Source of the DNA: a virus
IMG/VR virus record: IMGVR_UViG_3300046506_000204
Coordinates: 1-61,716 of that record
DNA length: 61,716 nucleotides
Reading direction: 5' to 3' (one strand)
Both the position numbers and the translations under genes were made by a program. The number at the start of each line of letters is the position of its first letter. The first letter of the stretch is position 1. The notes beneath the pieces were generated by a model. That model saw only the letters and a list, made by a program, of their open reading frames with translations, had not been told where the DNA came from and searched no databases. Positions 1,957-57,400 of this stretch are shown here, in pieces.

Positions 1957-3569
1957 ACCCCGTCGGCGTAGGTTTCAGGCTCCAGCGCGCGCTCGTCGAT
2001 GATGATCGGCGGCACCGGCGACATATCGTACAGCCTGGAGGTTGCGTCGATCAGGTCCTTCTTGCTGCTGAACGGGTAGGTCAGGTATTCCTCAAGGAAA
2101 CCTTTGTTGAGGCTGTACAGGTTCCCTTCGTGATCGCGGCGCTGCACCGGCTTGAAGATCCTGAACGCCTGCCCCTGCTCCCTGATCCTTTTCTGGTTGG
2201 CGGTCTCGCCCTGGGTCACTGCGGCCAGGTAGAAGCGGCGCGAAATGAAGTCGGGCTGGAGCCTCTGCACCCTGTCGTCCTTGGCCTGGGCACCGTCGGA
2301 GGTCCAGGCCAGCTCGGTGATCTCGAAGGCTTCCTTGTCGCGGGTCATCTGCTCCTCGAAATATTCGAGGTCGCTCTGCATCCCGTATCGCTCGTAGCCG
2401 ACCTGAACAGTCTGCACCCCAGGCTGGGCCATCCAGTAGCGGCGCAGGCCCTTCAAGGCTTCCCAGCGTTCGCGCAGGCCCATCTTGTGCCGGTATCCGT
2501 CCAGCAGGTAGCGGTTGCCGCCGCTGTCCACGCCGACCACGGCCATCGCGGTGTTGTCGCTGCCCTTCTTCTTCGAGTTCGCGGGATCCACCATGATGTA
2601 CACATTGAGCGTGGCCGGGCGAATGTCGAGGAACGAGAGCCATTCCTTCTTGAACATCGACTCGTTGCCCGCTGCCGGGTTCATGAGCTGCTGGCACGCG
2701 ATGGTCGCCGGACCCTGGGCCAGCTTCTTCGCCTCCCACGCTTCCTGCGTCAGGAATACGGGCTTGCCGTCTGGCGTGCCGTCAGCGGTCGCAGGGTACA
2801 GGCGCACCGTGAGGATGCGCCGGTCGATGATCTCCTGGTACGTGTCCATGAAGGAGTAGCGCGTCCCGACGTGCCATGCCCGGATCTTGCCGTCCTCGCC
2901 CCTCGCGCCCAGGTTGTCACTGAGTTCCCAGGCCGTGGTCGTCTTGTTGACCTGATCGGGCGTGCTGACCGACTCGCGCGTGACCACGTCGTCATACACG
3001 CGCAGCAAAAAGTGCGCGCCCGTCGGCTGGCCGTCGACCAAGCCGTGCGCCTCGACGCTGGCCTCCTTGGGGTTGCTGCGCCTTTTCACGACGATGCCCT
3101 TCTCCTCGCTCCACTTGGGGCTTTGGCCACGCGGGTCGCTGTAGAAGATGTCGGGGTAGGTCGCTTGCAGGTCGCGGTTGCTCTCCAGCTCCTGCTTGAT
3201 CTGCAACATGAATTTCCGCGCCACCGGCTTGGTATGGCTGAAAATCCCGATGGTGATCTCCGGGTTCACGATGATCTCTTGGATGATCCCGGCAAAAGTG
3301 ATGATCGTGGACTTGTAATGCTCGCGTGCCCACAGGTCCAGGTGGCCGTCAGGCTTGGCCTCCACCTCGCGGCAGCGTGCGTACAGCCAGGGGTGGATCG
3401 CGTCCAGGCGGTGCAGCAGGCGCGTCAGCAAATAGAAGCGGTCATGTTTGCCCAGCCACGCCTTGCCCTCGATGCCGTACTGGGTCTCGATCACCTCCCA
3501 CAGGTCCGCAATCGCCTCGAACGGGGCCGAGTGCAGGGTGGTGCGGATCTCGTCAGGCAGCGTCAGCAT
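1953..3569 (-). CDS. terL: Terminase large subunit
   Basis: A 538-residue DNA-packaging motor. The Walker A-like AREHYKST sits near residue 80, in the position of the R-x-H-x-K-S/T motif of podovirus-type terminases. The Walker B-like LLRVYDDVVT lies near residues 188-197, and the nuclease motif MVDPANSKKKGSDNTAM near residues 320-340 provides the first acidic residue of the RNase-H-like nuclease. Length and motif order fit TerL. The start overlaps the end of the upstream small-subunit candidate, as is usual for terS-terL pairs. The enzyme would translocate DNA into the prohead and cut concatemers during lytic growth. Confidence 0.93.
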   Translation of the reverse strand: MLTLPDEIRTTLHSAPFEAIADLWEVIETQYGIEGKAWLGKHDRFYLLTRLLHRLDAIHPWLYARCREVEAKPDGHLDLWAREHYKSTIITFAGIIQEIIVNPEITIGIFSHTKPVARKFMLQIKQELESNRDLQATYPDIFYSDPRGQSPKWSEEKGIVVKRRSNPKEASVEAHGLVDGQPTGAHFLLRVYDDVVTRESVSTPDQVNKTTTAWELSDNLGARGEDGKIRAWHVGTRYSFMDTYQEIIDRRILTVRLYPATADGTPDGKPVFLTQEAWEAKKLAQGPATIACQQLMNPAAGNESMFKKEWLSFLDIRPATLNVYIMVDPANSKKKGSDNTAMAVVGVDSGGNRYLLDGYRHKMGLRERWEALKGLRRYWMAQPGVQTVQVGYERYGMQSDLEYFEEQMTRDKEAFEITELAWTSDGAQAKDDRVQRLQPDFISRRFYLAAVTQGETANQKRIREQGQAFRIFKPVQRRDHEGNLYSLNKGFLEEYLTYPFSSKKDLIDATSRLYDMSPVPPIIIDERALEPETYADGV

Positions 3570-4098
3570 TGGTCCCTACGGGCTGTTGCAGGCGCTTCCT
3601 GAACGCGGCGCGCAGCTCGTCGAAGCCATCCGACACGGCGACCGTCACGTTGGTGCTGCTGTCCTCGGGTTCATCCAGCTCGCGGATCTTGCGGATCGTT
3701 TCGACGGCCAGCTTGTTCGCCTCAACGATGGTCTTGACGTCCTTGGGGTGATCGACGCTGTCGACCATGACCAGCAGCTTGTCCATCGCCTTGCGTGCCA
3801 CTGCGAGGCCGGTCGTCATATCCTGCACGTCCTGGGTGGCCTCGTCGATCTGCACCTGACGAATCGCCTCGTCACTCGTCAATCCGTTCGTCACCTGTTC
3901 GTCAATGGGCGAGCCTGCCATTGCTTCCCGTACAAGTTCACGCTTGACATCACTGGTCCCCTTGATCCAGCCCTGCTTCTTGGCATACCTGCGCAGGGTC
4001 GGTTCGGGGATCGCGTGCTTGGTGGCCAGGGCGTTGATGCTGTACCCGCCCGCCGCGTAGTCGATCTCCGCAGCGGCGAAATCATATTGAGTGGTCAT
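3553..4098 (-). CDS. terS: Probable terminase small subunit
   Basis: I place the start at 4098 (181 aa), where AAAGGA precedes the ATG, rather than at the upstream in-frame ATG at 4215 which would read across the operator region. The N-terminal 50 residues form a helix-turn-helix of the kind found in phage small terminases (AAAEIDYAAGGYSINALATKHAIPEPTLRRYA). A helical middle with conserved K-L/V-E-x-I positions and a charged C terminus follow. It overlaps terL by 17 bases. It would recognise the packaging site and recruit TerL. The call rests on HTH plus context. Confidence 0.8.
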   Translation of the reverse strand: MTTQYDFAAAEIDYAAGGYSINALATKHAIPEPTLRRYAKKQGWIKGTSDVKRELVREAMAGSPIDEQVTNGLTSDEAIRQVQIDEATQDVQDMTTGLAVARKAMDKLLVMVDSVDHPKDVKTIVEANKLAVETIRKIRELDEPEDSSTNVTVAVSDGFDELRAAFRKRLQQPVGTNADAA

Positions 4099-4142
4099 GA
4101 GCTGTCCTTTGTGCGCGAGGGAGCGCGTGTAATGTGTGCACC

Positions 4143-4163
4143 TATATAGCATCTTGCTATATA
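4143..4163. promoter_or_regulatory. Operator-like palindrome between divergent genes
   Basis: TATATAGCA (4143-4151) and TGCTATATA (4155-4163) form a perfect 9-bp inverted repeat around TCT. It lies in the gap between terS (leftward) and the radC operon (rightward). TATA-rich arms overlap possible -10 elements for both directions (TATACT on the plus strand at 4159-4164). A dimeric repressor binding here could switch both units; the protein is unknown. Confidence 0.6.
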
Positions 4164-4217
4164 CTGTGCATGTGGGCCTGTGCGCCCTCGTCCCCCACCA
4201 CTTGAACGGAGCCAACT

Positions 4218-4712
4218 ATGAAAGCCCAGGTAGTGCCGATCCATCCCGAGCCACGCGTGGACACACGCCGGCAGCGCGAGGACGCAACGATCCGCCGCGC
4301 CCTCTCCATCCTCTCGAACCGGATGCGCCAGCCCGGCGAGATGCTGACCAACCCCATCACGGCGCGCAACTACATGCGCCTCTACGCGGGGGAGCTGGAA
4401 CACGAGGTCTTTCTAGTCTTGTTCCTGGACGCGCAGAACCGCGTGGTGGCGCGTGAGGAAATGTTTCGGGGCGGGCTCACACAGTGCAGCGTGCAGCCGC
4501 GCGAAGTGGTGAAGGCTGCGCTGGCCCATAACGCGGCCTCGGTGATGCTGGGGCATAACCACCCAAGCGGCAAAACCCAGCCCAGCGAAGCCGACAAGGT
4601 CCTCACTGGCACGCTGAAATCGGCGCTGGCCCTGATCGATGTGCGCGTGCTGGACCACATCATCGTCACCAGCAAGTTTGCCTACTCGTTCGCCGAACAC
4701 GGCGAGATCTGA
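4218..4712 (+). CDS. radC: RadC-like JAB-domain protein
   Basis: A 164-residue protein made essentially of the RadC/MPN (JAB) domain. The metal site is visible as H-N-H-P-S-G at about residues 118-123, followed by S-E-A-D, the expected HxHPSGx(n)SxxD signature. A short basic N-terminal extension precedes it. Phage and genomic-island RadC proteins are common, but their activity is unsettled, and older DNA-repair claims for RadC have been disputed. It opens an operon of about a dozen small genes and is the only one in it with a well-known catalytic fold. Confidence 0.92.
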
Positions 4713-51400: not shown

Positions 51401-54400
51401 CCGGTGCGCTCGTTGCGGAAGAAGCCGAGGAACTTGTCGCCCCAGCGGGCGGCCTCGGACTGGGCCTGGGCGAACGAGTTGAAGTGCGTCGGATGGGTCA
51501 GTTCCAGCTCGACATAGCGGGTGCTGGCGCCGGTGCGCTTGTCCTCGTAGACGACCTCGTCGCGCAGTTTCGTCACCTTGTCGGCGCGCAGCGTCTCCAT
51601 GCCGGCGTCGAACGTGCCGTTGGCCTTTGCCCGCTCGATGACTTCCTCCAGGCGGCGGAAGAACTCGTCGAACACGACGTCCTGGCGGTCGGTTTCGAGC
51701 GACATCAGGCGGTTCAGGAACTTCGGCACGTCCGGCAGCTTGCCGTAGATCAGCGCGCCGGTGCTCTCGTCGATCAGCCCGGTCAGGCCGAGCGCGGCGG
51801 TGGTCTCGTTGAAGTTCAGGTTCGCCGTGCCGTTGTACATGTCGACGAAGAACGCCTGCACGGCGTCCGCGGCGTGCTGGGATTCGAGGTTGTCGGTGGC
51901 CGCGAACAGGCCCTGGCCGCCGGTCTCGCGCTGCCCCTTGGTCAGCGCGCCCAGCTGGTCCAGGCGGCGCGCGATCGAGGAAATAAACCGCTTCTGCGCT
52001 TTCAGGTTCGTGGTCGGCAGCACGTAGTGCGGTTGATTCGCCTCGTTCGAGCGGTGCGTGCGTCCAAAACCCTGCACCGCGTTGTTGGCGCGCCAGCCCG
52101 GCTGTACCAGGTAGTGGATGCGGCGGCGCTGGTTCTTGACGCCCAGGTCCGACTGGAACGAATAGCCGGTGCCGCCGGCGTCGGAGAACACGAGGACCCG
52201 CTTCTTGTCCTCCATGAAGGCGTCGGCGTCGGCCGGCACGCTGGACGCCGGGCGCTTCTGCTCGACGACCTTGAAGCCGCCGGTTTTCGGGTCCTGCTCC
52301 TGCACGAAGCGGCGCGACCGGCCGGTGATCTCGGCGACGTTGTTGACGCCGAACGCGCGCAGGATCATGTCGAGCGGGTTGTCCGGCACGCGGATCTGCT
52401 CGAGGTTCCTGACCAGCGCGTCACGCTTGGCCACCATTTCCTGGTTGAACACCGGGTTGCCCTTCGAGTCGACCACCGGGCGGGTGGCCTTGTTGCCCTC
52501 GCTGTCGGTGTACTCCTCGTGCTGCTGCACCGGGAACGAGTGGCGCACATAGTTCAGCAGCGTCTCGCGCGGGGTGAAGTCGAAGTCCTCGGGGATCGCC
52601 TCGTCGTCGTTCGCCATCTTGGCGGCTTGCCGGTCCTGCTCGGCCTGGTTGGTGCTCACCAGCTGCATCACGACCGCGTGGCCGGCGTCCAGGTCGCGCT
52701 GGGCGGCCTCGATGATCGTCGGCATCTGCATGGCCGTGATGATGTGGCTGAAAAAGCGCTGGTGGTTGCCCCAGAACGCGGACAAGGCGTTGCTTTTCGC
52801 CTTCGGGTCCTTGTTCTGCAGCGTGGTTTCCAGGGCGGCGTTGATGTTCTGCAGGACACCCTGCCAGGCGCGCGCCAGCTCGTTGTAGATGTCGGTCTGC
52901 AGCGGGGTCAGCGGGTGTTCGAGGCGGTCATAGGTGACGCCATCAAAACTCAGCGAGCGCGCCAGGTACGAACCCTGGGCCTTCATGTCGCGCGAGACCA
53001 GTTCCATCGCCGCCACGCCGCCGGCCTCGATGCCGCCGACGAAGTCCGTCACCTTGGCGAACGCACTGCCCTCGCCCCACAGGCCCAGGCGGGTCGCGTA
53101 GGCCAGGTTGTGCACTTCGGTGGCGCCGGTGGCCGAGACGTAGACGATGCGGGCTTTGGGCAGCGCTTCCTGCAGCGCCACGCCGGTGAGCGCGGTGGCC
53201 GACGGTTTCGTCTTGCCGCGCTTGCCCTTGCGTTCGAGCACGTTGCCCATCTTGTGGCTCTCGTCGAACGCGATCACGCCGTCGAAATCCTTGCCCAGCC
53301 ACTCGACGATCTGGTTCAGGCGCGACTTGCTGCCGAGCTTCTTGTCGTCCTTGGCGTGCTCGATCCCGCCCCAGCCGCTCTTGCCGTTCACTTTCAGCTC
53401 GTCGAAGCGCACGGTCGTCTGCACGCCATTGGCCAGCGCGATCTTGGCCTTGTGGCCGCGCGTGTCCCACGATTCCAGCGTGCCGCTGCGGCCGCGCCAT
53501 TCGATCGGCGTGCCTTTCGGGTAGGCCGCTTTCAGCTGCTCGGCGCTCATGGTGCCGGGGCCGGCCAGGCCCGGCGCGTTGTTCTTGACGTCGCTGCCCA
53601 TGCGCAGCGTGTCGTAGGTGGTGAACAGGATGCCGCTCTTGGCGTCGATCCTGTCGCCGGCCTTGACCTTGTTGTGCGCCAGGATGTCGTCGGGGTTGCC
53701 CGAGACGCCGGCGAAGTCGCGCTTCGCATCGCGCAGCAGGCCCTGCTTGGCCGAGAGCCACACGGCTTTCTTGCGGCCTTGCCTCTGGTTGTCGAGCAGG
53801 ATGCCGGCGATCTCGCGGCCCTTGCCGACGCCGGTGTTGTGGTTGACGAAGCCTTCGGCCACGTAGTTTTCCGGTCCCGGCACGTACATGTCGTAGAAAT
53901 CGTCATGCCGCACAAACTCGACATGCGCGATCTCGCGCCAGCCGCTATGCTTGCCGCAGGAGGTGTCGAGCGATGCGCAAGCCACGGACGAGCATCCCGC
54001 CTGATGCGATTCAGGACGTCGTGCAGGCGTACCTGCAGGGGGCGCACTCGACGGCGCTGGCGCTGCGCTACGGCGTGACGGCGCCGACGATTGCGTATCA
54101 GCTGCGCAAGCATGGTGTTGCGCTGCGTGATCGCTCGACGACGAACCGGATGCGGGCGCCACTGGATGATGCGCAGCTGCGTCGCCTGAATGACGAGGGG
54201 CAGCTGTCCCAGCGCGAGATAGCGCAGCAGCTTGGCGTTTCACAGGCGACGGTGGAACGTGCACTGCGTCGGCTTGCTCTACGCTCCAGCCGTGGTCGTG
54301 GCTCGCCGCAGGAGAAGAATTACTTCTGGAAAGGCGGCCGGAAGACGGATGACGATCGCTATGTTCTGGTGAAGGCGCCAGGTCATCCGTATGCGACGAA

Positions 54401-57400
54401 AGACGGCTATGTGCGGGAACACCGGCTGGTGATGGAACGTCTGCTCGGCCGTTATCTGCGGCCAGAGGAAGAAGTGCACCACGAGGACGGGAATCGGTCC
54501 AATAATCGGCCAGGCAATCTTCGGCTTTTCGCAACGCACGAGGACCACATGCGCTACCACTGGGAGAAGGAGTGGCGGGCGCAGTATGCGCAACGGCGAG
54601 CAGGTGCCCCGGCTGCAGACCATCCCGGATCGTCGCCCAGCCCTGCGGCGTCAGGAAGCGGTGCTCGTCGGTCACGGTGATCGTGCGGCCGTCGCTCAGC
54701 GTGACGCGGTACAGCTTGGCCTGGCCCTTCTTGAACGTCATCGTGGCCAGGTGCGGCTCGAATCCGCGCTCGGTCAGCGCCAGCACCCAGTGCGGTTCGC
54801 CACGCTCGACCAGCACCTCGATCGGCGCGTGTTCGCCGGTGACGGGGTTGTAGATGCGCGTGCCGGCGGCCACGCAGCCGTCGCCGATGAAGAAGCCGCG
54901 GCGCACCTCGCCGCCCGGCAGCATCTGCTGGTGCGCCTGGCCGGCGTAGACCACCGCCTCGAGCTGGGCCAGCGACAGCAGGCCCTTGTCGATCACGGCT
55001 TTCGGCAGGTTCGGGGCGTACGACGGGCTTGGCGGCAGCACGGCCGCCATCGCGGCGGACTGGACCAGCTTGCCCGGGTGCGCCTTGGCGCCGGGGATCG
55101 ACAGGCGCTGCGGGGTGTAGGACTCGAAGATCGCGTCCGACAGCTCGCCGGTGGCGGCGGCCTGGTCGGACGATTCGACCGTGACTTCGCCCGTTACGGG
55201 CTGTTGGCCACCATCGCGTGGTACAGATTCTCGATCAGCAGTTCCGCTGCGTCCTCGGGCGTTTCCGAGGCCGCCAGTTCCTCGGCCGTCAGCACCACGT
55301 CCAGCGGGTCCTGGCTTTCCGGGTTGGTCAGAAACCTCACCGCCCGCCTCGGCTCCCACTTGTTCGCCATCGCGTCCACCTGCGCTTCCATCCTGTCGAT
55401 GTCCGGGTAGCCCGGCGCCACCGGAATCGGATTGATCCCGTTGTCCAGACCCCAGCGGATCAGCGTCAGCACCGCCGGCTCGGTCGCCAGCGGCTTCTTG
55501 CCCGGCAGGAACGCGATCGCCGCCTTGTTGAGCGGCATCTGGTTGACCAGAAGGGTTCGCGCCATCCGTATCTTGAGCTGCTTTTCGTTCATTGCGGATA
55601 CCTTCGAGCAGTGCCGGCAGTTCGGCCAGCGTTTTCACCTGGCCGGTGACGACCGTGCCCGTGGTCGGGCCGGTCTTGTCGATGACCAGGATCTGGTTGT
55701 CGAACGTCGTGCCGTACTTGGCATAGTTGCTGCCGTCGACGGTGAGGTTGACACGTACATTATAGTCCTGGCGGATCTTGGCCCACCAGCTCTTGAACGC
55801 CGGACGGTCGGCGGCCATGCCGCTGCCGACGATCGCCACCACGCGCCCGCCTTCCTGCAGGCGTTTGAGGGCCTGTTCGATGTGGGTGGCGCCGTTCATG
55901 GTGTCCCTGCTGCCCGCCATGCGCCCGGCGGTCGACGAGAACGGCGGGTTCATCAGGATCACGGACGGCTTCACGTCGCCCGGCAGGATGTTGTGCAGCT
56001 GCTCGGCGTTTTCCTGGAACAGGCGCGCCTCGGGCAGCACGGCCCTCAAGACCTCGGCACGGCGCGACGACAGCTCGTTGACGACGACGTCGGCCCCGGC
56101 CAGTTGTGCGTAGATCGCCAGAGAACCCGTCCCGGCCGACGGCTCGAGCACGACTTCGCCGGGGCGGATGTTGGCCAGCCAGGCGGCCGCGAACGCCTCG
56201 CTCGGCGGGGTCGAGAACTGCTGGTACTCGTCCATTTCCTCGGTGCGGCGGGTCTGGGTGGCCAGCTGCTGGGTCCACTTGTCCAGTTCCTCGATCTTGT
56301 GCACGGCGTCGGTCGCCGCGCCATCCGGCGTGATGCCCTGGGCCATGATGTGGCGGTTCATGCCCGCCTCCATCGCGTCGTAGGCGTCCTTGACGCTGTA
56401 CTTGCCTTCGGCCTGGGTGCCGCCGAAGGCCTTGTCGGCGTGCTCGAACAGGGTCTTGCTGCTGATCGTCTCGCCGGCGGCCAGCGACTTCTGCACCTGC
56501 TGCGCGATCTTCTCGGTCGCCGAGGCTGGTGCGGCCAGGTTGGCCGACAGCCCCTGCTCCTTGGCGAACTGGATCGCGTACGGGCGGATGCCGGGACCGA
56601 AGTGCGAGATCAGCATCTTGAACAGGTCGACCAGGGTCTTGCCGGCCGCCTGGAACGCGACCAGCGCCTTCTCGAAGTGCGGCTTCGCGGCCTTGTACGA
56701 CTCCTCGTCGAAGCCGGCCGGGAACGATTTCAGGGCATTGCCGCCAAACAGCTGGATCAGCCCCTTCATTGCCTCCTCGACGCCGGTGACGCCGAGTTTC
56801 GCGGCCTCGCCGATCAGCTGGGCGGCGCTCTTTTCCTGCTCGGCCGACAGGGTCGGCGCGGCTTTCGGGCCGTTCTTGACGATCAGTTTGGCCTGCAGCT
56901 TCGTTTTGGCCTGGTCCCAGTTGATCGCCTTGAGGAACGCTTCGCGCCCTTCCTTGATCGACACCAGCGTGTAGCCCTTGCCGGACGGGGTGCGCTGCAT
57001 CTCGCCGCCGCCGTCCCAGTGCACCTCGTACTCGGGGGTCCTGGTCTGGAACAGGCCAAAGCCCATGTGCTTGGTGGCATCGCTCGGCATGTCGTGGATG
57101 ATCGACAGGCCGCGCGACGGGTCGGCCAGCAGGAACACCTTGCCGTCGTCGACCAGTTGCAGCAGGTGCTGGTAATCCTCCTGCGTCCAGTGGTCCATCT
57201 GGGCGGCTTCGCCCGGGTCCTTCGCCTCGGGCTGCTCCTGCTGTTCCTCGGCCAGCTCGCTTTCGGCCTGGTCGAACAGCGCTTCCAGGTCGCCCTCGGA
57301 CAGCGGGCCGCTCGGCGGCTCGACCGGCTGATGCTGCTGCTTGTCCAGCTCCTCGCGCAGGCGGGCCTGCTCGGCATCGCGCTCGGCCTGCTCGTTCGCC

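Follow-up and report, generated by a model that had tools for sequence, protein, structure and literature searches.

Can an intein carry its homing endonuclease in the form of a gene of its own on the other DNA strand? The question is raised by a 61,716-nucleotide stretch of viral DNA (the whole of which is called the window here; IMG/VR record IMGVR_UViG_3300046506_000204, positions 1 to 61,716), in which a complete HNH endonuclease gene lies antisense within an intein that interrupts a helicase. An intein endonuclease is usually regarded as a domain synthesised along with the intein itself. The locus is very probably a composite mobile element consisting of a cis-splicing intein and an antisense HNH homing gene. 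No intein whose endonuclease gene runs antisense turned up in a full-text search of the literature (a preprint of 2025 about non-canonical actinobacteriophage intein architecture fell outside that search), and such an intein is apparently an undescribed kind of mobile element.

The helicase around the insertion site is of the Strawberry-notch type (AAA_34, E=1.7e-108, followed by Helicase_C_4, E=2.2e-83), and the intein junctions read GDG/C...HN/TGVGKG, with slashes at the splice points. The boundaries given for the intein in a preliminary description made from the sequence alone were exact and the splicing blocks intact. Profiles detected it as Intein_splicing (PF14890, E=1.5e-15) and above cut-off at both ends: TIGR01445 for the intein N-terminus (35.2 bits, cut-off 24.5) and TIGR01443 for the C-terminus (16.5 bits, cut-off 15.6). 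The signature residues of class 1 cis-splicing are present (C1, TDEH with H72, H346-N347 and Thr+1), and C1, H72, H346 and N347 are invariant across relatives. A HINT fold is predicted with confidence for residues 1-97 together with 310-347 (predicted local distance difference test score, pLDDT, ~96), and the model matches solved inteins, among them NpuDnaB 4o1r (template modelling score 0.88, normalised by target) and 2in0. Between blocks B and F there is no fused sense-frame endonuclease domain. The sense strand is open there and encodes the Ser/Pro/Ala/His-rich linker that had been described, about 200 residues predicted to be disordered (pLDDT ~39). Codon-position GC content has the sense-frame pattern in the splicing domains and flips within the linker. 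The window and every complete relative have a single, continuous sense open reading frame (ORF), which does not fit a split intein or a fractured gene, and an Rfam scan of 53500-55200 found no intron ribozyme family at E<=1. The host ORF with its internal helicase apparently encodes a giant multi-domain phage protein; a low-complexity Gly/Asp/Gln/Arg-rich segment lies roughly 100-240 residues ahead of the intein.

On the plus strand, the 235-residue product matches HNH_3 (PF13392, E=9.8e-10), the PHROG 7545 HNH endonuclease family (E=1.1e-28) and several helix-turn-helix (HTH) families. This profile search had been named beforehand as a test on which the prediction could fail. The HNH match settles that the plus-strand gene is genuine. 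The reading of this ORF as a chance antisense frame of GC-rich DNA starts from the fact that long antisense ORFs are frequent in such DNA, several being found in the window; it was refuted by the HNH profile matches and deserves practically no credence in view of the specific HNH/HTH homology, the confident fold, the relatives whose genomes are richer in AT (GC as low as 40%) and the codon-position bias of substitutions reported below. The predicted structure is an HTH-HTH-HNH fold (mean pLDDT 84), the catalytic-motif residues are invariant in the alignment of relatives, and the protein thus combines a conserved-motif HNH domain with a DNA-binding module, as a homing endonuclease of this type should. 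Foldseek searches with the whole model gave weak matches throughout (best E 0.016; I-HmuI at E 0.23). The HTH part of the family profile (window 53973-54290) matches, by sequence search, structures of HTH CRISPR-repeat-binding proteins (PDB 8vd6, 2lvs). The gene is complete, as had been claimed, with an intact ORF, an ATG and a Shine-Dalgarno match that ranks among the three strongest of 54 representatives of the family. The claim that its end overlaps block B also held, since its stop codon (TGA, 54678-54680) faces intein residue 66. The two-strand constraint proposed for this overlap fared less well: because the overlapping tail, HNH residues 212-235, is predicted to be disordered, strong constraint there is not supported and double coding in the window itself is probably minor. 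Real double coding was found in the terminase members of the family, as set out below.

Table 1. Features of the intein locus in the window (positions in nucleotides of the window; residues numbered within the intein)
Feature	Position	Strand	Remarks
Giant host ORF, 5,422 aa	45421-61689	minus	from the ORF listing
Intein, 347 aa, Cys1 to Asn347	53836-54876	minus	in frame with the 5,422-aa ORF; helicase P-loop region
N-terminal splicing domain, residues 1-97	54586-54876	minus	block A CVAAGTRIYNPVT; block B TDEH 69-72
Sense-strand linker, residues 98-309, Ser/Pro/Ala/His-rich	53950-54585	minus	no domain match
C-terminal splicing domain, residues 310-347	53836-53949	minus	ends VNHN, then Thr+1
Shine-Dalgarno AGGAGGT	53958-53964	plus	8 nt before ATG 53973; opposite intein codons 305-307
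HNH endonuclease gene, 235 aa, two HTH motifs and HNH_3 domain	53973-54680	plus	ORF, profiles, predicted fold
HNH C-terminal tail over block B codons	54606-54680	plus	predicted disordered

The same arrangement recurs in other phages. The nearest relatives of the HNH protein in the phage database belong to eight Pectobacterium and Dickeya phages, in which the HNH gene lies antisense within an intein of the terminase large subunit (junctions GFG/C...HHN/TGKS). Pseudoalteromonas phage PHS3 adds a third host of an antisense-HNH intein. Near-full-length matches to the terminase-type HNH are found in 9 of 50,697 phage records. In the Pectobacterium records (L034, phage Ymer, 592-2856) the intein-bearing terminase frame alone is annotated, as 'hypothetical protein'; the PHS3 record (L036, 673-2799) lists the HNH gene, and its terminase is annotated as starting after the intein. 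HNH relatives in GAL1, Dulem virus 38, Jack and IME-SA4 lie on the strand of their annotated gene.

Scans of IMG/VR with the window HNH or intein as single sequences gave no matches, nor did tblastn of the window intein against phages; alignments were required, and two of these, one of seven diverse HNH proteins and one of the N-domain of the window's own subgroup, were too divergent for scanning. HNH alignments used regardless of orientation uncovered 154 distinct loci in IMG/VR. With family profiles, all of them except L081 and L119 have an HNH gene that runs antisense within an intein with one continuous ORF, and none has it in sense; one locus (L079) was placed by inspection of its coordinates. 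Seven loci (L062, L071-L075, L078) were first read as HNH genes without an intein and were reassigned with better profiles. A separate scan with the intein N-domain only, which shares many contigs with the HNH scans, found the antisense HNH in 79 of 80 loci, the remaining one being cut by a contig end. A scan of genome contigs yielded one clear antisense case and otherwise apparently stand-alone HNH genes. The clear case is on a contig of an uncultured actinobacterium metagenome-assembled genome (L281; intein-family member 2098-4380 minus, antisense HNH 3468-4232 plus), perhaps as a prophage or a mis-binned phage.

The arrangement that the preliminary description had taken for a one-off therefore recurs in no fewer than 127 distinct inteins in which an HNH gene of this family is antisense; 0 were found with it on the sense strand. 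In all 127 the last two residues are His-Asn and the next is Ser, Thr or Cys. The first residue is Cys in 123; the other four are truncated or were misplaced by the profile. These inteins sit in terminases of several families and in two helicases, the window's and the RecD-like one of L082, and the insertion sites are nearly all at the P-loop or beside it. The HNH frame passed an intactness test in 116 of the 127. Five failures may reflect the choice of start codon. In six inteins (L225, L277, L212, L207, L267, L172) the HNH gene looks decayed, being deleted or broken, with the sense frame and splicing ends intact; the preliminary description had suggested looking for relatives of this kind, which probably represent late stages of a homing cycle. 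Every sense frame in the family stays open even where the HNH gene has decayed.

How much an open sense frame proves depends on the number of cases. Synonymous codons were shuffled within each of 54 dissimilar HNH genes, and the stops arising in the intein frame were counted: 406 were expected and 0 observed. For the window alone 2.2 sense stops were expected (P about 0.05-0.06), in line with the earlier caution that openness says little for one GC-rich case. The open frame is thus weak evidence in the single window and overwhelming evidence across the 54 relatives, and since the inteins of the family range from 40 to 65% GC (median 48%), this family-wide avoidance of stops answers the concern about base composition. 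The antisense HNH has an identical codon phase in 90 of 90 inteins checked.

Substitutions in 39 close pairs reveal which frame is under selection. In the linker they fall on HNH codon positions 1, 2 and 3 in numbers of 366, 263 and 1194, so that the free wobble position is that of the antisense gene; in the C-extein the counts by sense position are 307, 156 and 1668, the usual sense wobble. The eight Pectobacterium and Dickeya phages alone display a matching pattern. A conserved domain in the sense-strand linker, which would have contradicted the preliminary description, was looked for in the related inteins and none was found: the invariant residues are confined to the splicing blocks, and changes in the linker track the antisense frame. 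Among the terminase members the HNH gene reaches about intein codon 9-15 and overlaps the N-terminal splicing domain. This overlap has few substitutions and no free wobble position in either frame (107, 218 and 164 at sense positions 1, 2 and 3), which is evidence for constraint on both frames.

The intein and the HNH gene also diverged together. Distances between HNH cores and between C-terminal splicing domains, which come from essentially separate DNA, are correlated (Mantel r=0.83; 0 of 5000 permutations as high). It could be supposed that a free-standing homing gene landed by chance in a pre-existing mini-intein and that the two do not form one unit. Related HNH genes do exist outside inteins (L035, L037-L039, L081, L119), and the HNH tree resolves neither a single origin, nor the number of origins, nor the place of the window. 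A chance landing may describe the original event. A chance resident, however, predicts mixed orientation and phase as well as HNH-free inteins, and what is seen is that virtually all inteins of the clade (79/80) have the HNH antisense, in one fixed phase and with matched divergence, which makes this explanation quite unlikely.

Alleles without the element were also sought, as proposed in the preliminary description. A scan with the part of the helicase downstream of the intein found 32 viral loci, all intein-free at this site. Two of these (L002, L003) share 94-95% protein identity with the window over the adjoining helicase and 91% DNA identity in the flanks, and have an uninterrupted GDG TGVGKG; in these two and in the 30 other loci the two sides of the host homologue meet precisely at the splice junction. 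Around the empty site, DNA identity showed no clear local gradient that would indicate co-conversion. In the other direction, inteins that are ~40% identical (HNH ~50%) occur in terminases whose C-exteins have no detectable blastp match. A homing cycle fits these observations taken together: one element shared by dissimilar hosts, close relatives with an empty site, and intact inteins whose HNH gene has decayed.

The HNH protein might instead serve the phage, for example in DNA packaging, or regulate the host gene via antisense transcription. Most relatives are in terminase large subunit genes, and HNH proteins near terminases are cited in the literature as packaging components. This is nevertheless very unlikely, as the window and L082 elements are in helicases, close relatives lack the whole element, and the HNH gene is sometimes lost while the intein is kept. 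It is also unlikely, if less markedly, that the antisense gene is a decaying relic and the intein in the window's phage an immobile mini-intein. Decayed HNH genes in relatives and the lack of a recognised promoter in the window would agree with a relic; against it, the window shows no damage to the ORF, the motif residues, the ribosome site or the predicted fold.

Expression signals are clearer in the family than in the window. Upstream of the HNH starts, sigma-70-like matches exceed those in shuffled sequences (mean best 8.98 versus 8.04 of 12, p=1e-8), and several relatives have a TTGACA-17-TATAAT-like sequence 26-31 nt before the HNH ATG. Several observations weigh against a composite homing element in the window. 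No sigma-70-like promoter was recognised upstream of its HNH gene. The protein is remote from its relatives (about 30-40% identity) and its position in the HNH tree is unsettled. No other allele of the window's helicase with an intein was found, and selection was measured in the relatives. Intein and extein identities correlate too (0.79), and much of the recent inheritance was therefore vertical. Protein splicing, antisense expression, DNA cleavage and homing are all deduced from sequence.

With these reservations, the composite element would work as follows. The minus strand would encode a canonical cis-splicing HINT intein, the splicing of which would restore the phage helicase. The HTH-HTH-HNH gene, antisense in the linker, would be translated from its own start in place of a fused endonuclease domain. 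Its product would cut intein-free P-loop alleles, and repair would copy intein and endonuclease gene together. The linker would have to remain stop-free in the sense frame and would otherwise be passive. On a broader scale, the family on balance probably represents a widespread, undescribed class of two-strand phage homing elements with one fixed phase, which double-code the C-terminal part of the HNH and the N-terminal splicing domain in the terminase lineage and home to P-loop sites of several ATPase families.

If this is correct, the homing function is uncoupled from translation of the host gene, and the endonuclease could act early and the host protein late. The family would also supply many naturally overlapping genes on opposite strands, with a catalytic domain that is double-coded, and the constraint on both strands could be measured in them. 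Such elements are easily missed, as public annotation gives one of the two genes. The cultured carriers Ymer, Abuela, Setonix and PHS3 make homing testable.

Of the systems already known, canonical inteins, which bear a fused endonuclease domain of the LAGLIDADG or HNH kind, share with the window a HINT domain inserted where the host protein has a conserved catalytic site, the position of the endonuclease between blocks B and F, and the expectation of homing. They differ in that the window's endonuclease is a separate opposite-strand protein and its sense linker a disordered by-product. Fractured genes, in which split inteins are accompanied by free-standing endonuclease genes in phage-like sequence, were reportedly described by Dassa et al. 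in 2009. They too associate an intein with a free-standing endonuclease gene, but their host gene and intein come in two pieces, and the window's sense ORF is continuous. Nearest in the literature searched are the ShiLan element and group I introns that hold antisense endonuclease genes. In the ShiLan element, an out-of-frame HNH gene lies in a phage methylase on the same strand as its host, with no splicing domains (PMC11855218). Like the window element it is inserted in a phage gene, and its HNH gene overlaps a host frame that stays open; the two HNH domains are 48% identical over 73 residues; the window differs in its opposite-strand HNH and intact HINT domain. Pseudomonas phages ZC03 and ZC08 are reported to have an HNH element within an ATPase gene that was predicted as two pieces (PMC5418858). 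The antisense homing endonuclease gene I-DsqI, in a eukaryotic ribosomal DNA group I intron, is expressed and cuts its insertion site (PMC9548176). Group I introns splice as RNA and require no open sense frame, and I-DsqI belongs to the His-Cys family; what they have in common with the window is an endonuclease gene antisense within a self-splicing element.

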